Made by a program: the position numbers and the translations under genes
The notes under the pieces: generated by a model
What the model was told of the DNA's origin: nothing
The model's database searches: none
What the model saw: only the letters and a program-made list of their open reading frames with translations
Part shown: positions 2,922 through 16,373 of the stretch, piece by piece
Layout: each line of letters starts with the position of its first letter
How positions within the stretch are numbered: the first letter of the stretch is position 1
DNA from: a virus
IMG/VR virus record: IMGVR_UViG_3300032675_000152
Span: 1-21,643 of that record
Reading direction: 5' to 3' (one strand)
Length of the DNA stretch: 21,643 nt

Positions 2922-3712
2922 TATTTCTGCATACCTAAACTAATATCATGCTGTTGACTTAAGAACTGTTGTAATGATTCAGGCTGAACCTTGCCACTTG
3001 CTAAATGAATCCATTGTCCTCGATCGTCAAGCCCATATTCTTTACCCTTACCTGTTGTAATGATAATGGGTTCTTGATTCTTAATTTGTACGCCAGCAGC
3101 TTGTGCTTGTTGTACAATATCTTGTGGCTGATCGGGTACAGGTGGTGTTGCCGTTGTTGCCGGTGTTGCCGTTTGTTCATCCCCGGGTTGTTGACCAAGT
3201 TGGTTGGCCATTTGCCCAAATACTTTCGACCCTTGAGCTGGTGCCGGCGCTTTAGCTGTAGCCTTTTTAACAGCAGGACCGTTTTCGATACCAGCTGATA
3301 CACGGGCAACAATGTTAGTTAAAAATTGACTTACCCCTTTAGGAGACATATCAGTTGGTTTTGGAATAGCAAATAACTGTGTACCATCGTGTCTTGTTGC
3401 TAGTTGTCTAGCATATTTTTGTAGGTTAGCCGGAGTGTTTGATGCTGGATTTGCCTGTACGCCTTGTGTCCATTTATTGACCCAAATTTTGGCATCTTCT
3501 TGATTTCGCTGTGTGGCTTGTTGCCCGGAAACCTTGGCCTGTCTTTCAGCTGTGCCAGGAACAAAACCTTTTACTTTGTTCCATAGACTTGCTCTTGCCG
3601 GAGTATCCTCAGGTGCTGGCGCCGCCTGTGCTGGTGCTGCCTGTGCTGGCGCCGCCTTGGGGGTTCCTGTGCCTGTGTTTATTGCTTCGCTAATAACTTC
3701 GTTAATCTTCAC
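2921..3712 (-). CDS. Pro/Ala/Gln-rich late protein of unknown function
   Basis: I do not recognise a catalytic domain in these 263 residues. The chosen start is a GTG at 3712 with GGAG eight bases upstream; the frame overlaps the end of the preceding gene. The first nine residues MKINEVISE|A match the I-x-E rule for T4 capsid-targeting peptides. A low-complexity Pro/Ala segment at about 18-40 contains a tandem AAPAQ repeat, and a second Pro/Thr-rich linker lies near 180-200. The middle (about 80-150) looks like a small helical domain. The last 50 residues look like a compact domain (IIITTGKGKEYGLDDRG, then QPESLQQFL). The composition, late promoter and leader-like N-terminus suggest a virion-internal or scaffold-associated protein, but this is inference. 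Confidence 0.6.
   Translation of the reverse strand: MKINEVISEAINTGTGTPKAAPAQAAPAQAAPAPEDTPARASLWNKVKGFVPGTAERQAKVSGQQATQRNQEDAKIWVNKWTQGVQANPASNTPANLQKYARQLATRHDGTQLFAIPKPTDMSPKGVSQFLTNIVARVSAGIENGPAVKKATAKAPAPAQGSKVFGQMANQLGQQPGDEQTATPATTATPPVPDQPQDIVQQAQAAGVQIKNQEPIIITTGKGKEYGLDDRGQWIHLASGKVQPESLQQFLSQQHDISLGMQK
3615..3658 (-). repeat. 15-bp tandem repeat coding for the Ala/Pro/Gln linker
   Basis: About three copies of a 15-bp unit (plus strand GCTGGYGCYGCCTGT) lie in the coding sequence of the 263-residue protein and encode the repeated AAPAQ stretch. The unit length keeps the frame, so copy number could vary without destroying the protein. Confidence 0.75.
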
Positions 3713-3950
3713 TTTTCATTCTCCGTACACCGCGTTTAAATTTCTCTGGTTCCTGGGTACGGATTGAATTGATTAATCGTCGTTCCAGCTCTCCTGCTTG
3801 CTCGGCATCGTAATTTTCACGTATATAATTGATTAGATTGATTGCTCCAGCGATTACGTTGGAGGCACGGCTTTCCACAAGATTCTCACGATCTTTGTGT
3901 ACTAGCAACGTGTCTAGTTCGTCTAATATGCTACGGGCCTTCTTTTGCAA
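3702..3950 (-). CDS. Small conserved phage protein, first gene of the late operon
   Basis: This 82-residue, charged, helical protein has no enzyme motif. Translation most likely starts at a TTG at 3948-3950, because GGAG stands six bases upstream and no ATG is available nearby. A TATAAATA late promoter ends about 24 bases before the start, making this the leading cistron of the late operon. The second half (RASNVIAGAINLINYI, then GELERRLINSI) resembles, from memory, small uncharacterised proteins common in T4-like cyanophages. Its last codons overlap the GTG start of the next gene by 11 bases. Function unknown. Confidence 0.7.
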   Translation of the reverse strand: MQKKARSILDELDTLLVHKDRENLVESRASNVIAGAINLINYIRENYDAEQAGELERRLINSIRTQEPEKFKRGVRRMKSED

Positions 3951-3973: not shown

Positions 3974-3981
3974 TATTTATA
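3974..3981 (-). promoter_or_regulatory. T4-type late promoter box for the 3950-1 operon
   Basis: The minus strand reads TATAAATA, the exact T4 late promoter consensus recognised by the gp55 sigma factor with the gp33/gp45 activators. The expected transcript start is near 3967, leaving a short leader that contains the GGAG of the TTG-started gene. No -35 element is needed in this class. Confidence 0.75.
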
Positions 3982-4027: not shown

Positions 4028-5050
4028 ATGAATAATAATTTTTGTGTAATGCCGTTTTTTGGAGGCGAATACGATAAATCTGGGTTTATTACACCTTGCT
4101 GTTTAATGAAACCACACAAGATAGACGAAGTAAGATCCCAGATGCTTAACAATATTCGTCCAGAATGCTGTAAATCCTGTTGGGATCTTGAGGATCAATC
4201 CATTAAAAGCGATAGACAATTAAAAAACGAAACCTTTGATTTTTATGAAAATCGAGATATTAATTTTATATTCCAAGATTGTTGTCAAGGCAAATATAGT
4301 CCAAAAATTATAAAACTATACACTTCAAATCTTTGTAATGCAACATGTATTACATGCGGACCAACCGCTAGCACCAGCTGGGCAAAATTGAAAAGTATAC
4401 CAATTAATTTAGTTACTATGGGTGACGATTCCTTAAACAAAATTAATTTTTCCACAATAACGTCTCTGAGTTTATTAGGGGGCGAGCCCCTGTACGATAA
4501 AAACATTCTTATTATTTTACAACAACTATTAGATAAAAACAATACCTCGTGTTTTATAAGTATTGTTACCAATGGAAGTACTGAGCTTACTCAAAAACAT
4601 ATAGATATACTTTCCCAATTTAAAAATTTAAGTATCTGTGTTAGCATTGACGGAATTGGCCCGGTTTTTGAATATTTACGCTATCCGCTAAAATGGTCAG
4701 TTTTAATAAACAACATCAAATTATTTAAAGAATTTGCAACTTATGTGAGTGTTAGTTATACTATAAGCAATTTAAATATTTTATATTACCATGACACTAT
4801 TGGGTGGTTTAATCAAAACAATCTAACATTTAATACTAATATAGTTTCGCATCCTAGTTATTTTAATGTTAATTCATTGCCTCAGTCTATTAAAGATCAA
4901 CACCCCGAATTAAATCAATTTTTTAGACCCCACTTACCAATAGATGATCAAAATTTTATGTTAGCAATAAAAGAAATCAATGCACAAGATCAACTTAAAG
5001 GATTAACCGGTGCCAATTTCATACCTCGATTTACTAACATAATTCTTTAA
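4028..5050 (+). CDS. Radical SAM protein with N-terminal twitch-type cysteine cluster
   Basis: The 340-residue protein has the radical SAM 4Fe-4S motif CX3CX2C at C103, C107 and C110 (LCNATCITCGP), and a GGEPL motif at 151-155 for SAM binding. Before the barrel, cysteines at C6, C24-C25 and C47/C48/C51 match the arrangement seen in twitch-domain radical SAM proteins, where they hold an auxiliary Fe-S cluster. SIDGIG near residue 207 is also typical of the family. The substrate is unknown; the family includes peptide- and small-molecule-modifying enzymes. The gene is visibly more AT-rich than its neighbours and lies alone on the plus strand, overlapping the end of its minus-strand homologue by 17 bases. 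No Shine-Dalgarno sequence or convincing promoter is visible upstream. It may have been acquired separately. Confidence 0.85.
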   Translation: MNNNFCVMPFFGGEYDKSGFITPCCLMKPHKIDEVRSQMLNNIRPECCKSCWDLEDQSIKSDRQLKNETFDFYENRDINFIFQDCCQGKYSPKIIKLYTSNLCNATCITCGPTASTSWAKLKSIPINLVTMGDDSLNKINFSTITSLSLLGGEPLYDKNILIILQQLLDKNNTSCFISIVTNGSTELTQKHIDILSQFKNLSICVSIDGIGPVFEYLRYPLKWSVLINNIKLFKEFATYVSVSYTISNLNILYYHDTIGWFNQNNLTFNTNIVSHPSYFNVNSLPQSIKDQHPELNQFFRPHLPIDDQNFMLAIKEINAQDQLKGLTGANFIPRFTNIIL

Positions 5051-6092
5051 AATATTCGACTATGTCCGGAAAGACTTCTTTCCAACTGTTTTGCCGACGA
5101 TGTTCCCACGTATTAATAAAATTATCAATATCCGACAGATTACTATTTAATTTGGTGTTGAGCAATAACCTATTAACAATTCCGGCGGGCTCTGTTTTAT
5201 TAATTAAATCCCGCAGAGAACGAGGAGTCTTTTCCAAATCCCAAATACCCCAACAAGGGTGAACATTAATTTCCGTGGGATCTCCTAATCTATTAGTAGA
5301 AAATGTATTTTTAACCCAGTCTGTTAATCGATTATAATAAAAAACATTAAAAAGGTTTAATGTATGGTTAACCCTGAACATAACATTTACGGGAGCTTCC
5401 TTAACCAATCTTAGTAGATTATTTTCTACTTTGTCCCATTTTAATGGCCATCGTATATAATTAAATTGCTCCCCAATTCCATCAATTGATACTTCAAAAA
5501 ATACCAATTTAAACTGACTCCATGTATTAAATACTTCGGCAGTGGGATATATACTACCATTGGTGGTATACCAAATTTCAACTTGAGAGGGATCTGGGAT
5601 TTTCTTTAACACTTGTAGATGTGTATTTGTAAATAATGGCTCGCCGCCGAAAAACTTTATACGTCTAAGATGACTCAGATCAAGGTCGGCTAATACTGTA
5701 TTAATTGAATTAGGTACTATTGAATAGATTCTCTGGCTTTTTTTAAATTCTTTTTGCCACAATGTGCTTACGTCTGGTCCGCATGTAATACATGCTGCAT
5801 TGCAATTAAAGTCCAAACTTATATCTATAGCTACAGGTTTTCCAGGAATCGTATCGGGTATTATATCAAAACTAGCTTGTCTAAAACTACTAATACCCGA
5901 ATCTTCTTGTTGCTTACATACTCCACATTGTGGCGTCCAATTGTCAATTTGATGTAAGTGATCCAACGAGTTATTACCGTTTAACAGAATATCTTCCTTA
6001 TACCAACAACACGGTTTTACAATGATTCCTTGCTGGTTTTGGAAAATTGACCAACCATTGGTTAAAAATTTACAAAATTTGTTAGACGTCAT
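5034..6092 (-). CDS. Radical SAM protein, paralogue of the convergent gene
   Basis: This 352-residue protein repeats the plan of the neighbouring plus-strand enzyme: C97, C101 and C104 form CX3CX2C (NCNAACITCGP), FFGGEPLF sits at 147-154, and SIDGIG and YIRWPLKW blocks follow. N-terminal cysteines C7, C28-C29 and C56/C59 would coordinate an auxiliary twitch-type cluster. Its ATG overlaps the TGA of the helicase gene (ATGA), so it is probably co-translated with replication genes from the primase promoter. This differs from the solitary plus-strand homologue. The shared blocks suggest duplication or two acquisitions from one family, with sequence divergence hinting at different substrates. Nucleotide modification or modification of a host peptide are both possible; neither is shown. 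Confidence 0.86.
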   Translation of the reverse strand: MTSNKFCKFLTNGWSIFQNQQGIIVKPCCWYKEDILLNGNNSLDHLHQIDNWTPQCGVCKQQEDSGISSFRQASFDIIPDTIPGKPVAIDISLDFNCNAACITCGPDVSTLWQKEFKKSQRIYSIVPNSINTVLADLDLSHLRRIKFFGGEPLFTNTHLQVLKKIPDPSQVEIWYTTNGSIYPTAEVFNTWSQFKLVFFEVSIDGIGEQFNYIRWPLKWDKVENNLLRLVKEAPVNVMFRVNHTLNLFNVFYYNRLTDWVKNTFSTNRLGDPTEINVHPCWGIWDLEKTPRSLRDLINKTEPAGIVNRLLLNTKLNSNLSDIDNFINTWEHRRQNSWKEVFPDIVEYFKELC

Positions 6093-7525
6093 TCGGATTT
6101 AGCTTTCAGTCCAGCAATCATCTGTTTAAGTTTATTACTTTCCACACTACTTCCGGGAGGAGGTCCTGTATCTTTATCGAGAGTAAATCCATCTCTTGCC
6201 TTAGGCATACCATCATTTACTACTGTAGATGTCTTGATAGAATTTAAAATACTTGCAGATGGTTTACCATATCCGCCGCTATTACTGTCTCCGCCTTCTT
6301 CGCCTGCATCAGTAATACGCATGGTTTCAATATTGTACTCTAAGTCGATCTTTTGTCCTACACCTGTTGAACTACGTGACTTCATACATTGTATTTGATA
6401 CTTGCCACGTTCTTTCATAGCACGACTTGTAAAGATACCAAACACGTTATCCGCAGTATTAATCTTTGAAATACCACCTGCAATATGACTATGATCAAAT
6501 TCAATTTCTTCTACTGCACTACGATTCAACTGTGATGCTGTTACAAACAACACACCTAGTTCTTGCGATAAGTTACGCAATTCTTCTGCTACATATTTGT
6601 CTTTGATAAACTGATCATTTGGATTTACTTTAACACTCACTGGCATTACCAAGTCCAAGTAATCGCACATGATAAAGTCAACTGCGTTTCCTGTTTGTAT
6701 TTGATACTCTTTAATAAAGCTACGGATATCGTTTACGTTGCTCTGCGCCGGTAATGACTTAATACGATACTTTCCCGACTTCTTACCTACCATTTTAACT
6801 TTAAGTTCTGTAGTATCAATATCCTTACGAATTTCTTTAGTACCTGTGCTGGTTAACATGGCATCAGTACGCAGAGCCACTAGTTCTTCAGAGAGTTCTA
6901 AACTAATGTAAACACCACTTAACCCTGCTTGTAACCAACTCAATGCAATGTTCATCATAACAAGTGATTTACCTGACCCTGATCCGCCGGCAAAGATGTT
7001 AAGCTCACCTCGACTAAATCCGCCATACAAGATCTTATCCATCTGTGGCCAACCTGTTGATACTTGTCCGCCTGAGTTAAAGTACTTGTCAATACGTGCA
7101 TGTGGATCTGCAAAGTAATCTGTGCCTAGATCTTTTGTTAGGCCAATCTGTACTGCATCTTTAATTAGTTTTTCTACAGGATCGTAATCGCCTTCTTCCA
7201 ACAAGTCTGCTGCCTTAAGAATAGCCCTAGATAGTTCTTCTTTACGACTAAAACTTTCAAACTCCTTCATAAACCATTCTTGATGCCCGTCCCCGGCTTC
7301 GGGAATGGGTCTGAGATCTACACCTGTTACTGCTCGAATCTGTTCAAGTGTAGGTAATGTTTTATATTCAGCAGAGTGACTTTGAATAAACTTGGCCGCT
7401 TCTCTAACGCTGCCGTGGAAGTTCTCTGGATTGTAGATATTAGCAACACGCACATAACTTTGTGCATCTTGCATCATCATTTCTAAAAATAGTTTTTGTA
7501 GTTCGGGTGTGTAATCAGTAGCCAT
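6089..7525 (-). CDS. 41: Replicative DnaB-family helicase, T4 gp41-like
   Basis: At 478 residues this is close to T4 gp41 (475). Walker A is GGSGSGKS at 180-187, Walker B lies at 284-292 (FIMCDYLDL), and TASQLNR at 329-335 is the DnaB H3-type motif. The N-terminal 130 residues correspond to the primase-interacting helical domain. The C-terminal tail after about 415 is Gly/Ser/Pro-rich and probably flexible. The hexamer would unwind DNA 5'-3' on the lagging strand and pair with the primase encoded immediately upstream. The primase stop and this ATG are two bases apart, and the stop overlaps the following radical SAM start. I see no strong Shine-Dalgarno sequence. Confidence 0.93.
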   Translation of the reverse strand: MATDYTPELQKLFLEMMMQDAQSYVRVANIYNPENFHGSVREAAKFIQSHSAEYKTLPTLEQIRAVTGVDLRPIPEAGDGHQEWFMKEFESFSRKEELSRAILKAADLLEEGDYDPVEKLIKDAVQIGLTKDLGTDYFADPHARIDKYFNSGGQVSTGWPQMDKILYGGFSRGELNIFAGGSGSGKSLVMMNIALSWLQAGLSGVYISLELSEELVALRTDAMLTSTGTKEIRKDIDTTELKVKMVGKKSGKYRIKSLPAQSNVNDIRSFIKEYQIQTGNAVDFIMCDYLDLVMPVSVKVNPNDQFIKDKYVAEELRNLSQELGVLFVTASQLNRSAVEEIEFDHSHIAGGISKINTADNVFGIFTSRAMKERGKYQIQCMKSRSSTGVGQKIDLEYNIETMRITDAGEEGGDSNSGGYGKPSASILNSIKTSTVVNDGMPKARDGFTLDKDTGPPPGSSVESNKLKQMIAGLKAKSE

Positions 7526-9078: not shown

Positions 9079-9086
9079 TATTTATA
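9079..9086 (-). promoter_or_regulatory. T4-type late promoter box for the 151-residue structural gene
   Basis: The minus strand reads TATAAATA, the exact T4 late consensus. The predicted transcript start is near 9072, about 15 bases before the ATG at 9057. Confidence 0.72.
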
Positions 9087-9116
9087 CGTTATTCTTTTGA
9101 TTGGCTGTATCCAGAA

Positions 9117-9124
9117 TATAAATA
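9117..9124 (+). promoter_or_regulatory. T4-type late promoter box for the GIY-YIG gene and following gene
   Basis: The plus strand reads TATAAATA. With the minus-strand box at 9079-9086 it makes a back-to-back late promoter pair separated by 30 bases. A start near 9130 would transcribe the homing endonuclease and the 124-residue gene. Confidence 0.7.
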
Positions 9125-9150
9125 AACAAGCACAACAATTATTGGACACC

Positions 9151-9786
9151 GTGGAAGATTTAACTCAACAGATAACAAAATTTTATGTATATTCTTATGC
9201 ACGATCCTCTAACGGAACGCCGTACCATATCGGTAAGGGCTGTGGTTGGAGAATGTTTAGTAAACAACACTCAGTCACTGTCCCCAAAGATAGATCTAAA
9301 ATACAAATAATAGCAAAAAATCTATCGGAATCTGAGGCACACCAATTGGAGGCAAAATTAATTTCTATTTTTGGTCGTAAAGATTTAGGAACTGGAATTT
9401 TACATAACCGTAGCAATGGCGGAGAAGGATCTAGCGGAGCATATAGATCTGCCGAAACTCGTGCTAAAATTAGTGCTAGTAATACTGGTAAAAAATTACC
9501 AAACAGATCAGAAATACACCGCAAACGATTGTCAGACTCGCAAAAAGGTATTAAACGTTTGCCATTGTCTAAAGAACATAGAGATAAAATAGGGCAAGCA
9601 CATAAAGGGAAAACAATTACTAAAGAAACTACAGATAAATGGCGTAAATCAATGGAACTACGCAAACAATCCGGGGTTATTGATATCCGCAATATTAAAA
9701 AAGTAACTTGTCCGCATTGTAATAAAACCGGCGGTGGTGGTAATATGACCCGGTATCACTTTAATAATTGTAAGAATAATGAATAA
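9151..9786 (+). CDS. GIY-YIG homing endonuclease with NUMOD3 motifs
   Basis: The GIY-YIG nuclease core begins at KFYVYSYARSSNGTPYHIGKG. A conserved arginine (GCGWR), the catalytic-region glutamate (HQLEAKLISIFGR) and the common NGGEG turn follow. Next come repeated NUMOD3-type DNA-binding helices (SAETRAKISASNTGKK, then SKEHRDKIGQAHKGK). The C-terminus has a likely zinc finger, CPHC with H and C in YHFNNC. This is a Seg-like free-standing selfish nuclease. The frame is open upstream to 8971, but that part lies before the late promoter and overlaps another gene. I place the start at the GTG at 9151, which follows a weak GGA; a TTG at 9142 is the alternative. The stop overlaps the next ATG by eight bases. 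Confidence 0.88.
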   Translation: MEDLTQQITKFYVYSYARSSNGTPYHIGKGCGWRMFSKQHSVTVPKDRSKIQIIAKNLSESEAHQLEAKLISIFGRKDLGTGILHNRSNGGEGSSGAYRSAETRAKISASNTGKKLPNRSEIHRKRLSDSQKGIKRLPLSKEHRDKIGQAHKGKTITKETTDKWRKSMELRKQSGVIDIRNIKKVTCPHCNKTGGGGNMTRYHFNNCKNNE

Positions 9787-10784: not shown

Positions 10785-11473
10785 AGATTTGCTTTCTGCA
10801 ATATATCCTTAACCCACTCAGTGTCTGCTAGATAATCTTTAAATTTGCGTTGCCAGTGGTCGGGATCAATCCACGGCAGGATTATTTGAACTTGTTCATC
10901 ACCCAGGTTATCCAGGAACTCAACTCCCGATGTGCAGTTATAAACGACCCACGGGCTAATGCGACCGGTAGCAATATGATGCACCACACGATTGCTGTTA
11001 CCATACCTAAAATAGTCGCTAAATCCATTCCTAAGTTCCAAATGATCTTCTGCATACGTTTGCATTTCATTTAATGCTCTCTCCAATGCGTCCTGTACTG
11101 CTTCTCTACGTAACCACTCGTGCAAGTAGGTGACATAGAACTCGTCTTTACACCAGTGGTCAATTTTCTTGTTGTTTTTTAATAGCCAGTCTAAGAAAGC
11201 TGTGGGATTAATGCCACGTATACCTACCATATGACGACCCCACTTAACAAACGCACCATAGTATGGGCTAGTTACAAAGTTCTCGTAGCTCTTTAACTTG
11301 GCGCTACCCTGTGTCATTTCATAAAACTTTAGATATGCTTTAAGTCCTAATTGCACACCTACTTCTTTTTCTTGTTGCCAACGACGCTTTTGTTCACAGA
11401 GATGCACAGCCAACGTACTTTCCTTGGCAAATGTTTTTTCACAATACCGACACTTAAATGATGTTGCAGTCAT
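10781..11473 (-). CDS. Zinc-finger protein of T4-like phages
   Basis: The N-terminus FKCRYCEKTFAKESTLAVHLCEQKRR is a zinc-finger-like unit: C8, C11 and H24 are spaced as in C2H2 fingers, while the last ligand may be C26 rather than the usual histidine. The remaining 200 residues are aromatic-rich and helical, with GSAKLKSYENFVTSPYYGAF and WGRHMVGIRGINP blocks that I recall from cyanophage homologues of unknown role. It may be a late-transcription or replication accessory DNA-binding protein, but nothing fixes this. Its start overlaps the end of the SGNH-like gene by 20 bases, and its stop overlaps the next ATG. Confidence 0.7.
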   Translation of the reverse strand: MTATSFKCRYCEKTFAKESTLAVHLCEQKRRWQQEKEVGVQLGLKAYLKFYEMTQGSAKLKSYENFVTSPYYGAFVKWGRHMVGIRGINPTAFLDWLLKNNKKIDHWCKDEFYVTYLHEWLRREAVQDALERALNEMQTYAEDHLELRNGFSDYFRYGNSNRVVHHIATGRISPWVVYNCTSGVEFLDNLGDEQVQIILPWIDPDHWQRKFKDYLADTEWVKDILQKANL

Positions 11474-12191
11474 TGATATACTTTACAAGATACTCGTTAA
11501 GAACAGCATGTTCTCCTGCTTTTGGGTGACGCATATGGTCAGGAGTTGATTGAGGTCCAATAAAATTGCCACCAGTAGATGAAGCCTTAGCAACACCTTG
11601 TTCATGCTGGTACCCAACTGCACACCAACGGAACCCATCAATGATACAATCTGTACTGGACAATAAACTTAATCTAGGATTTTCCAGTAGATATCTATAA
11701 CTATCATCAGCCTGTTGATATACCAATACGCGATGTCCTCTAGACTTTAAGCTATCTATAGTTGACAGTATACGATACAGTAAATCTTCAGTTCTGTCAA
11801 TTAAGCTATAGGCTTCTACCATTAGTTTTTGTTTAACAAACTTTTCACTTTCTGTTTTGTTCCAGAAGTGATCGTAACGATTAGCAAATTCCTGATTTTG
11901 CGGATTACACCAGCGTCCTTCAAACGAGTCAGCTTCAGTTGCTGGATCCATACCAAGAATAGGTATTTCGCCACGGCTTATAAAAGTTAATCCTAATACA
12001 TACAAAGTAGGTTCTGTTGCTCTATAACTATGCTTTAGTGTAGTTCTAATTATTCTGCTGTTGGCGCTACCACCGATGGCCAAACTTTCTGCATGTGGAA
12101 TACCCAATCGGTTAGCCAAGTCTACATGTCCGTTGCCAATGGCATATCCTTCCATGTAACTACATCCATTGACAACTAGATTCTTGATCAT
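11454..12191 (-). CDS. SGNH-hydrolase-like protein
   Basis: The 245-residue protein opens with a hydrophobic strand and NGCSYMEG, where S11 takes the place of the GDSL nucleophile. A GGSANSR block near 40-46 fits the oxyanion glycine/asparagine motifs, and DHMRHPKAGEH near the C-terminus supplies the D-x-x-x-H catalytic pair. Such proteins hydrolyse esters or acetyl groups on sugars or lipids. A second SGNH-like gene lies 2 kb upstream in the same run, but the two share only the fold motifs. The ATG overlaps the preceding TGA. The substrate is unknown, and a non-catalytic GCSY variant cannot be excluded. Confidence 0.66.
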   Translation of the reverse strand: MIKNLVVNGCSYMEGYAIGNGHVDLANRLGIPHAESLAIGGSANSRIIRTTLKHSYRATEPTLYVLGLTFISRGEIPILGMDPATEADSFEGRWCNPQNQEFANRYDHFWNKTESEKFVKQKLMVEAYSLIDRTEDLLYRILSTIDSLKSRGHRVLVYQQADDSYRYLLENPRLSLLSSTDCIIDGFRWCAVGYQHEQGVAKASSTGGNFIGPQSTPDHMRHPKAGEHAVLNEYLVKYINDCNII

Positions 12192-13079: not shown

Positions 13080-13580
13080 TTACCAAACCTTACCGTAGTT
13101 AATGACCTCGCTTTGACGTGAGATATCTTTGATAAAATATGCACACATAGGTTTATCGCCTTCGGTCAACGGAACTGCCAATAACTGTCCTGGTTTAAGT
13201 TTGGGGAAATACCATTTAACATCTTGATAGATATCCACAATTTCCACAGGAGCAAACTCTGGGCGGAAACTACTCAATGGGTTAAATGTAAACACATTAA
13301 ATCCGCGATCATTGATACTGGTTAGCGGAACAACTTCTAAATCGCCAAAGTCTGGTTCGCCGATAAGTATTTGCCAATCCACTGGCATACGAATAACATT
13401 GTTACCAATTCGCAATACTAATGCAGGACTGTTAAACGATTCTAGAAAGATTAAAGGAATATAAAAATAGTCCGGTTCTTTGGGATCACTGTTGTCTAGT
13501 ACACAAAATCTAACTTCATCAATTTCCTCAGGGATTTGATCCATTTCGTATGCTGTATTATCTAGTGTTAATATTCTCAT
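13080..13580 (-). CDS. Conserved T4-like phage protein of unknown function
   Basis: The 166-residue protein is strand-rich with conserved-looking blocks: YIPLIFLESFNSPALVLRIG, then PLTSINDRGFNVFTFNPLS, DVKWYFPKLKPGQLLAVPL and ISRQSEV. I recall similar blocks in cyanophage proteins near replication genes, without a function. No nucleotide-binding or catalytic signature is visible. The ATG overlaps the PIG-L stop (ATGA), and the stop is one base from the next ATG, so it is coupled on both sides. Confidence 0.7.
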   Translation of the reverse strand: MRILTLDNTAYEMDQIPEEIDEVRFCVLDNSDPKEPDYFYIPLIFLESFNSPALVLRIGNNVIRMPVDWQILIGEPDFGDLEVVPLTSINDRGFNVFTFNPLSSFRPEFAPVEIVDIYQDVKWYFPKLKPGQLLAVPLTEGDKPMCAYFIKDISRQSEVINYGKVW

Positions 13581-14116
13581 TGGTTTTCTTTTAATATAAG
13601 TTCCGCTTCCGGTGTTACAATATATCTACCTATATTACGATCTTGGAAGCCTATGATAACTTCGCTGTGTAATGGTAGTTCGTCTGCTGCAACAGAATCT
13701 AAGACTGTGTACTCTGTATTATAATTGAAAGTACTTGCAAAGTAAACCTTTGGTGTATCAATTGAGTTGGCTACTTCACAAACAAACCTGTGATGTATAT
13801 GTCCATAGTCGCCATCTTGATTATGGGTTAATATCAAGTCTGCTCCCGAGCTGGCTGTTATCAGATCTGCAGAAGCTTTGGTAATATCAAAACTGATCTT
13901 TCCCCTAACCATGTCTAACCATGTGTCAGTATTGCCCAAAAACGCTGTAGGTATATTACGACGATTCCAATAGGCTTCTAGTTCTTGTCCACGTGGGTCT
14001 GTTGCGTGATAGGTCAAGTAAACAATGGTCCAGTTAAATTTTGGATGGGCTTCAATAAAGGGCCAAGCAAATATAACACAATCATCAGGATGGGCTACAA
14101 GTGCAACTGCTCGCAT
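13577..14116 (-). CDS. PIG-L/LmbE-type deacetylase
   Basis: The first 13 residues MRAVALVAHPDDC carry the AHPDD zinc motif (H9, D11/D12). The usual following glutamate is a cysteine here. HNQDGDYGHIHHR at 98-110 supplies the third ligand region (H106/H109). The family removes acetyl groups from N-acetylglucosamine-type substrates, and some phage members act on modified sugars or nucleosides. At 179 residues it is slightly short for the family. It overlaps the end of the SGNH-like gene by 22 bases and is coupled to the next gene. The pairing with SGNH-like proteins suggests sugar or acetyl metabolism, but the target is unknown. Confidence 0.82.
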   Translation of the reverse strand: MRAVALVAHPDDCVIFAWPFIEAHPKFNWTIVYLTYHATDPRGQELEAYWNRRNIPTAFLGNTDTWLDMVRGKISFDITKASADLITASSGADLILTHNQDGDYGHIHHRFVCEVANSIDTPKVYFASTFNYNTEYTVLDSVAADELPLHSEVIIGFQDRNIGRYIVTPEAELILKENQ

Positions 14117-14892
14117 ATCTTCTTGTAATATATGTCTGCCAAATACTCTTGGCTCTTGGGATCACCGTGGTATCCAGGATCTACTTTACCGCTAAATGGC
14201 CAGGTATTGGTTGCATAAGCAGGAGTTTCTTCGTATTCCAGGGTCATGTATTTGTCAGGTACTACACTAGGTATAGCTTCACGAACAGTATTACTATTCC
14301 ATAGGTTATTTGCAACCAATAGGAAAGGTATTCCGGAATAGAACAACTGCATAATCCCGTCACGGATAATCCACTCGTCCTGCTGTCGCTTCCATTCACT
14401 ATCGTATAGAAAGTTTACATACTGCTTCATTGCCTGCTGTGTATTACGATCTATCTTGGCACTACGGTATGGGTGATCGTAATTCTCTACCAGGCTAAAA
14501 ATAGTTTCAAAAATCATACGATACGGATTCGTACCATAGTTAATATTGTCAATGCCCACGGTTCGATCATATCCATTTAGGTGGCTATGTTGTAGATGTT
14601 TTTGTAAGTCCGAGTTCCAACCTTTGTTTTCTTCTTTTGGTGGAACATATGGTGCTGCGGTTGCAGGGATTTCCATACGATCATGGAATGTAGGTGCAAT
14701 GATGGCGAACGCAGGCTTCTGTCTTAATACCTCATCTATCTGCACACGGATACCACCGTTACTGCATCCTTGCCTTGCCAGGATCTCTAAGTCCCATCCT
14801 AGTTTTTTTGCTAGTACTTCACCGTAGGCTGTGCCAGGTAGATCTTTTGCTGGTGCGCTAAAGCTACACCCGCACACGATTAGTTTTTTCAT
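14095..14892 (-). CDS. SGNH-hydrolase-like protein
   Basis: I choose the ATG at 14892, which overlaps the UvsW stop as ATGA, over a TTG two codons upstream. The 265-residue protein begins MKKLIVCGCSFS, with the serine at the GDSL position. RQGCSNGGIR near 40-50 fits the family's second block, and PTFHDRME fits a later strand. The C-terminal DPGYHGDPKSQEYLADIY supplies an aspartate/histidine pair as in SGNH block V. It probably acts on ester or acyl groups. Similar proteins occur in T4-like aquatic phages with unknown substrates. Confidence 0.62.
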   Translation of the reverse strand: MKKLIVCGCSFSAPAKDLPGTAYGEVLAKKLGWDLEILARQGCSNGGIRVQIDEVLRQKPAFAIIAPTFHDRMEIPATAAPYVPPKEENKGWNSDLQKHLQHSHLNGYDRTVGIDNINYGTNPYRMIFETIFSLVENYDHPYRSAKIDRNTQQAMKQYVNFLYDSEWKRQQDEWIIRDGIMQLFYSGIPFLLVANNLWNSNTVREAIPSVVPDKYMTLEYEETPAYATNTWPFSGKVDPGYHGDPKSQEYLADIYYKKICEQLHL

Positions 14893-16373
14893 TGCCAATT
14901 TGCTTTCTCAACTGTGAATGGATAGTTTGCTTCGTTGTAGAATTTCTTACGTGCTGTTAAGTGTCGCTTGGCGAACTTACAGGTTGATGTTACGTCCCAG
15001 ATTTGTACAAAGTCTTTGTCTTCCGCTTTACGGATCCCACGCCCAATGGACTGGATAACTCTAACAAAGGACTTACCGGGCTCAATAAGCACAAGATTAA
15101 AAATCCTAGGGATATTAATGCCCACAGCAGCAACACCATAGGTAGCAATAATAATCTTGTTAGTACTTGTTGCAATTTCATCGTATTCGTCTTTTCTATC
15201 ACCGGCTTTAGTTGCGCCGGATACAAATGCTACTTCAGGCTTGTCTTTGAGTAAACTAAACAAACTGCTTAGTTCTATTTGTAAGATCTTGCCTGTTTCA
15301 ATTCGGTCAACTAGGATAAGTGTATTACCACCTTCTTTGATCGAGTCAATCATCTTGGCCAAGTATGCCAGACGTTCTGCGTTAGTAGTTAAGTATTTAA
15401 GCTCAGACTGATAGTCCTTGTACTCAACGTGATCTACCATCTGTACAATGTTCACGTGACAGTTGGCTAAGTGTCCTGCTTCTTGTAATTCGCTGGCGCT
15501 TAACTTGCCTACTACTGTACCTAGGCTACAGAAAATGCTTACTTTTTCGTAATCTTCCTTGGGAATAGTTCCTGTTAATCCCCAACGCAAGGGTACCCGA
15601 GCAAACACACCTGTGAGCAGAGTCTTTAGGGCATCTGCTTTGGCCATGTGTACTTCGTCTACCATTACTAGAACAACATCTTCGATGAAGTCACCTATAG
15701 TAACATCGCCAATGCCGGCTTGTGTATTTTTTAATAAAATATTTAAACTTTGCCAAGTGCAAATAGTATGTGTCTTGCCAAATTCTTTACGGTCACCAAA
15801 GTACACACCCACATCAAGACCTAGATTCCGATAGTCTGCTTCTGTTTGTGTTACTAGGCTTTTGTTAGGCACAATTACAATGCTACGACCATATGGCTCT
15901 ATGTTTTTACTAAGTGCAGCAGTCATAATAGTCTTACCTGCACCTGTGGCAATTTCTTGTATGCTCTGCGGGTTTTGTAAAAAGTTGTTGATGATGTCAA
16001 CTTGATAATCACGGAACTTGATAGGTTCACCTACTTGTGGGTGTCCCTTGGGCCAAGTTTGATCTGCAAAAGTATCTTCAGTGAATTGATCAAACGTAAA
16101 TTGTGTTTTGTATTCACGCAGGTCTTCTACTTCAATATCGTAACCCTTGCTATCTATATAAGCAAGTATTTCGGGCAACAAGTTAATGTAACTGCTACCA
16201 CCTAGCTGAAAAAACGCAACCTTGCCGTCCCATCGTCCTAATCGTACACTAGGTTGATAACGTGCACCAGGAATTTCATATTTGAACTTCTTTACTAGAG
16301 CCGTGCGGTCAGCAAGTTCCAATCCTTCGATCTTTACGTTTACTTCATCTTTGATTATTAGTTTAGCTTGCAC
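14889..16373 (-). CDS. uvsW: UvsW-like SF2 DNA/RNA helicase
   Basis: The 494-residue protein has full SF2 motifs: the Q-like RDYQVDII, ATGAGKT at 142-148 (Walker A), DEVH at 239-242, TGT at 267-269 and QSIGRGIRK at 441-449 (motif VI). The N-terminal 100 residues with RLGRWDGKVAFFQLG match the UvsW-specific domain. Length is close to T4 UvsW (503). It unwinds branched DNA and R-loops and helps switch replication to recombination-dependent mode. The start is a GTG with AAAGGA eight bases upstream, overlapping the preceding gene by 16 bases. The stop overlaps the following ATG. Confidence 0.94.
   Translation of the reverse strand: MQAKLIIKDEVNVKIEGLELADRTALVKKFKYEIPGARYQPSVRLGRWDGKVAFFQLGGSSYINLLPEILAYIDSKGYDIEVEDLREYKTQFTFDQFTEDTFADQTWPKGHPQVGEPIKFRDYQVDIINNFLQNPQSIQEIATGAGKTIMTAALSKNIEPYGRSIVIVPNKSLVTQTEADYRNLGLDVGVYFGDRKEFGKTHTICTWQSLNILLKNTQAGIGDVTIGDFIEDVVLVMVDEVHMAKADALKTLLTGVFARVPLRWGLTGTIPKEDYEKVSIFCSLGTVVGKLSASELQEAGHLANCHVNIVQMVDHVEYKDYQSELKYLTTNAERLAYLAKMIDSIKEGGNTLILVDRIETGKILQIELSSLFSLLKDKPEVAFVSGATKAGDRKDEYDEIATSTNKIIIATYGVAAVGINIPRIFNLVLIEPGKSFVRVIQSIGRGIRKAEDKDFVQIWDVTSTCKFAKRHLTARKKFYNEANYPFTVEKANWQ

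Follow-up and report, generated by a model that had tools for sequence, protein, structure and literature searches.

A conserved convergent pair of N-terminal-twitch radical SAM genes in a cargo slot beside the helicase gene of T4-like to jumbo phages

Radical SAM proteins of the NF033640 family (N_Twi_rSAM, twitch domain-containing radical SAM protein) carry four N-terminal cysteines, the CX3CX2C motif and GGEP, and the family entry names no substrate. A literature search for a characterised phage enzyme of this family, or for a substrate of any N_Twi member, found none. The SPASM/twitch enzymes, among them anSME, SuiB, SkfB, MoaA and BlsE, share the core fold but bear their auxiliary domain at the C-terminus. 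Two N_Twi-like genes lying tail to tail, with an 8-nt overlap of their 3′ ends, are found in Vibrio phage KVP40 (KVP40.0260/0261, L003:7998-10104), next to a QueC-like gene and an NAPRTase gene. As variable cargo of aquatic T4-like phages, radical SAM genes have been described in pelagimyophages, where cassettes lie within a glycosyltransferase-rich host-recognition cluster (PMC7029224), and in an ocean virus study reporting a T4-like genome with 12 of them (PMC5332604). In the accessible portions of these two papers, the genes sit in a tail-fibre island or are merely counted, and neither a slot beside the helicase gene nor a pairing such as the one reported here is described.

The window analysed here spans an IMG/VR virus record in full (21,643 bases); megablast of it against phage records returned no match. 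The DNA comes from a water-borne phage of a widespread lineage extending from T4-like to jumbo phages. The features discussed below are the following.

3702..3950, minus strand: conserved 82-aa gene, one border of the slot (72% and 49% identity in related loci; slot scan)
3974..3981, minus strand: TATAAATA, T4-late-promoter-like, upstream of the 82-aa gene (motif search of the window)
4028..5050, plus strand: gene A, N-terminal-twitch radical SAM protein, 340 aa (NF033640 209.6 bits against a curated cut-off of 170; AF2 pLDDT 95, pTM 0.88)
4043..4180, plus strand: N-terminal four-cysteine cluster of A, codons of C6, C24, C48 and C51 (C-X12-G-X4-C ... CX2C), invariant in 48/48
4334..4357, plus strand: radical SAM motif CX3CX2C of A, C103/C107/C110, invariant in 48/48
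5034..5050: 17 nt shared by the 3′ ends of A and B, as many as in the related locus L018
5034..6092, minus strand: gene B, N-terminal-twitch radical SAM protein, 352 aa (NF033640 183.2 bits against the same cut-off; AF2 pLDDT 87.7, pTM 0.86)
5781..5804, minus strand: radical SAM motif CX3CX2C of B, C97/C101/C104, invariant in 28/28
5916..6074, minus strand: N-terminal four-cysteine cluster of B, codons of C7, C28, C56 and C59 (orthologue alignment)
6089..7525, minus strand: DnaB-like replicative helicase gene, the other border of the slot (phrog_19, E 6.5e-66), adjoining A and/or B in most related loci

A first-pass annotation had recognised here two homologous twitch-type radical SAM genes meeting tail to tail, with CX3CX2C, GGEPL and matching N-terminal cysteines in both products, one of them coupled to the helicase gene on the minus strand and the other solitary and richer in AT. 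The present analysis agrees on each of these points. Both reading frames are intact and convergent, the two proteins are 32% identical across 290 residues (E 7e-34, far past chance), and both score above the family cut-off. The ATG of B and the stop codon of the helicase gene fall within a 4-nt overlap (6089-6092), and A stands alone on the plus strand with a GC content of 30.6%, against 34.3% for B, 39.5% for the helicase gene and 39.3% for the window. A plus-strand reading frame at 5764-5952, antisense to B and conserved in L018, was set aside as the shadow of the conserved cysteine region of B.

In A the radical SAM motif reads CNATCITC and GGEPL occupies residues 151-155; in B they read CNAACITC and residues 149-153. 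The N-terminal cysteines C6, C24(C25), C48 and C51 of A correspond to C7, C28(C29), C56 and C59 of B. Across 48 orthologues of A and 28 of B, none of the seven iron-sulfur cluster cysteines is lost, save in one B row trimmed at its start, and GGE[PT] is found in 47/48 and 28/28, respectively. In orthologues of both genes the four-cysteine cluster precedes the radical SAM core, as in NF033640. The spacing in A is C6-X12-G19-X4-C24 followed by C48-X2-C51, which matches that of SPASM/twitch auxiliary clusters, but placed ahead of the core; B has C-X14-G-X5-C. Neither A nor B shows the auxiliary-cluster cysteines C-terminal to the core that distinguish SPASM/twitch enzymes, their auxiliary-type cysteines being N-terminal. 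The general Pfam model PF04055 (gathering cut-off 29.5) gave 24.6 bits for A and did not list B. Despite this shortfall, the radical SAM fold has the support of the fold match and of the NCBIfam model, which is more specific.

The AF2 models of both proteins are good. With Foldseek their radical SAM core matches anSME, SkfB, SuiB, MoaA and BlsE, with EpeE also among the nearest solved folds, at a TM of only about 0.4 over the whole protein, so that the SPASM/twitch enzymes are not close structural relatives and no solved relative informs on the substrate. A PDB sequence search with A and B likewise returned core matches only. Neither the PDB sequence search nor Foldseek found a solved structure of the N-terminal-twitch architecture, and the nearest folds do not decide the substrate.

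Viral contigs were scanned with A, with B and with two alignments, which yielded many orthologues. The mapped relatives have a fixed frame, in which the helicase gene is followed by an interval and then by the 82-aa gene. Where B is present, it lies directly after the helicase gene in most loci, and A, on the far side, points towards it; the 82-aa gene is kept with or without a radical SAM gene in the slot. The nearest cultured helicases, at 45-50%, belong to jumbo phages, PA5oct and Atu_ph07 for example. A scan with the helicase as query, meant to avoid the bias that radical SAM queries bring, gave 56 slots bounded on both sides. A or B occurs in 19 of these (A+B in 5, A alone in 1, B alone in 13); these figures count the slot L222 as A+B, since B is seen on its contig in L206, and before that change they stood at 4, 2 and 13. 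Another 19 of the 56 are empty, with border genes less than 100 nt apart. The other slots hold a SPASM-like radical SAM protein of a different family or genes that a reading of the sequences by eye labels SGNH-like, oxygenase-like, GIY-YIG-like and tail-fibre-like. This SPASM-like protein, seen in L214, L233, L247, L263 and L282, scores just below the cut-offs of PF04055 and SPASM. From these varied or empty contents we conclude that the slot is a site for cargo in which radical SAM genes abound. This helicase-side slot appears to be new, whereas the protein family itself is known. Given the other radical SAM, oxygenase-like and SGNH-like genes that occupy it, the slot after the helicase gene is a predictable place to look for more phage-borne chemistry.

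After removal of duplicates, A and B are adjacent in 41 distinct phage loci, 36 times convergent and 5 times in tandem; most of these loci were retrieved by searching with A or B, and those that are related do not count as independent. The 3′ overlaps vary in length between loci (e.g. 7, 14, 17, 20, 26 and 47 nt), so it is the pairing that is conserved rather than the exact overlap. Across 33 loci the pairwise distances of A and B correlate with r 0.59, and with a partial r of 0.57 once corrected for the helicase (permutation p 2e-4 each). In the helicase-based sample, B is present in 5/6 slots with A and in 13/50 slots without it (Fisher p 0.011). Kinship among loci makes the p values of both comparisons optimistic. 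Adjacency across lineages, together with co-divergence beyond that of the helicase, marks A and B as a co-inherited pair, and such a convergent pair appears to be new. The two genes also occur without each other, in 13 slots with B only and in more than ten loci with A only, which excludes a strictly obligate partnership. Bacterial orthologues of A were sought as well: one match, at 51%, is in L106, a contig of 3318 bases in a Bacteroidetes MAG that has the phage order A-B-helicase and is probably viral DNA binned with the bacterium; all others reach 31% or less.

A quick tree of 111 N_Twi proteins places A and B each on one side of a branch (99* SH-aLRT), as two phage clades separate from each other and from the remaining phage and bacterial sequences in the sample. 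A placement in two unrelated radical SAM families, considered at the outset as an outcome against the homology, did not occur. The grouping of A and B in one clade passes the AU test without rejection (p-AU 0.77), so the sequences leave an ancient duplication, and hence a common origin, as a possible history. The earlier suggestion of duplication with inversion or separate capture therefore needs to be amended: an ancient duplication is possible, but a recent one is excluded. Each window copy shares about 53% identity with its L018 orthologue, A and B only 32% with each other, and with two old clades adjacent in 41 loci, nothing recent happened in this phage. The low GC of A is by itself no sign of recent capture of foreign DNA either, since its orthologues hold the same place on the helicase side and B is AT-rich too.

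Expression signals differ between the two genes. TAAATA is found near -30 of the 82-aa gene in 63/63 distinct upstream sequences, mostly as NATAAATA, which resembles the T4 late promoter. It also stands 6-15 nt before the start of A in 31/50 sequences, a distance that is short and unusual for a promoter, and before B in 9/99. From its near absence before B, and from the position of B behind the helicase gene, we infer separate transcription: B would be read with the helicase and A from its own late-type signal, so that their times of expression may differ. Such a predicted difference in timing would weaken the case for a simple complex. The motif TATAAATA recurs on both strands, at 9086 (minus) and 9117 (plus), near a plus-strand gene at 9100-9786 that lies amid minus-strand genes, contains a NUMOD3 motif and reads like a GIY-YIG homing endonuclease.

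As to the substrate, the gene neighbourhoods of other N_Twi members give some indications. Near N_Twi genes of phages, the raw counts in 83 neighbouring proteins are 8 for radical SAM, 3 for carbamoyltransferase, 2 for GT8 and 1 for mannose-6-P isomerase, while bacterial N_Twi genes have neighbours encoding carbamoyltransferase, DegT aminotransferases, Asp/Asn hydroxylase and GDSL proteins. The window itself encodes a PIG-L deacetylase above the Pfam cut-off (13577-14116, minus) near two proteins that we read by eye as SGNH-like (11454-12191 and 14095-14898, both minus); these are possible sugar-tailoring genes. Inside the slot of A and B, in the window, there is neither a carbohydrate gene nor a gene of a known pathway. 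The N_Twi neighbours, the pelagimyophage cassettes and the PIG-L and SGNH-like genes weakly support a carbohydrate-type target; that the link comes from more distant N_Twi genes counts against a glycan target for A and B.

Sequence comparison makes it very probable that A and B are N-terminal-twitch radical SAM enzymes forming a conserved module. Each would cleave SAM at its CX3CX2C cluster, and the N-terminal cysteines would ligate an auxiliary 4Fe-4S cluster serving in substrate binding or electron transfer. That the two enzymes share one pathway, in which they would act sequentially or as a complex, is a proposal we moderately favour. The competing view is that their substrates are unrelated and that they are neighbours only through a shared preference for the slot, whose convergent position would tolerate insertion. 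The slot does take many unrelated genes and is often empty, slots or loci with only one of the two are common, and A lies away from the helicase in L025, L035, L046, L051, L060 and L071. Yet the distance correlation of A and B survives correction for the helicase, B accompanies A in the bounded slots beyond chance expectation, and the pairing persists in tandem order too; we therefore hold unrelated substrates to be rather unlikely. A joint action with a sugar, a nucleotide-sugar or a surface glycan of virion or host as target, and not a ribosomal peptide, is suggested by analogy with the N_Twi genes near carbamoyltransferase, glycosyltransferase and oxygenase-type genes; this choice of target, the least certain step, stays tentative. 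Taken as a whole, the best explanation we can offer is that A and B are a two-enzyme cargo module, inherited together in the slot that the helicase and 82-aa genes border, and act jointly on a sugar or glycan; our confidence in it is evenly divided.

Two other kinds of target deserve consideration. Many SPASM/twitch relatives mature peptides or proteins, and A and B could do likewise on a RiPP-like precursor or on a virion or host protein, as the peptide-acting anSME, SkfB, SuiB and EpeE among the nearest folds might suggest. The sugar- or nucleotide-acting BlsE, MoaA, viperin and DesII match about equally well, however, and between the border genes there is no candidate precursor peptide, as had been noted of the neighbours at first reading: the overlap of A and B and the gap of 77 nt from A to the 82-aa gene leave no room for one, and the 82-aa gene is also found where radical SAM genes are missing. 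A peptide or protein target is thus improbable. Modification of nucleic acid, either a phage DNA base or tRNA, which would shield the genome from host defence, fits the place of the pair by replication genes and the coupling of B to the replicative helicase. The radical SAM enzyme QueE is known in 7-deazaguanine pathways, and the distant convergent pair of KVP40 has a QueC-like gene and an NAPRTase gene as neighbours. But that pair, only about 23% identical, falls outside both the A and B clades and is an independent case; we recognised none of the genes for QueD, QueE, a transglycosylase or base modification in the vicinity of A and B, and since helicase-side slots hold many unrelated cargoes and are often empty, position says little. 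We regard a nucleic acid as the least probable of these targets. N-terminal-twitch radical SAM enzymes are common in aquatic phages, and the conserved pair is a minimal unit on which the joint pathway proposed above can be tested. A more specific form of it, with one enzyme made alongside replication genes and the other late, together performing an undescribed radical modification of a surface glycan or of another virion or host component, would give these enzymes their first function but is unlikely. The finding of a shared product of A and B would raise the importance of the pair.

Two further observations concern gene content beyond the slot. A minus-strand gene of the window at 805-2157 joins a GNAT acetyltransferase-like N-terminal part to a longer remainder. 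In another contig, of 288,815 bases (L043, region L101), we found thirteen NF033640 matches, seven of them above the cut-off, and five of these seven genes form one cluster with carbamoyltransferase and SGNH-like genes.
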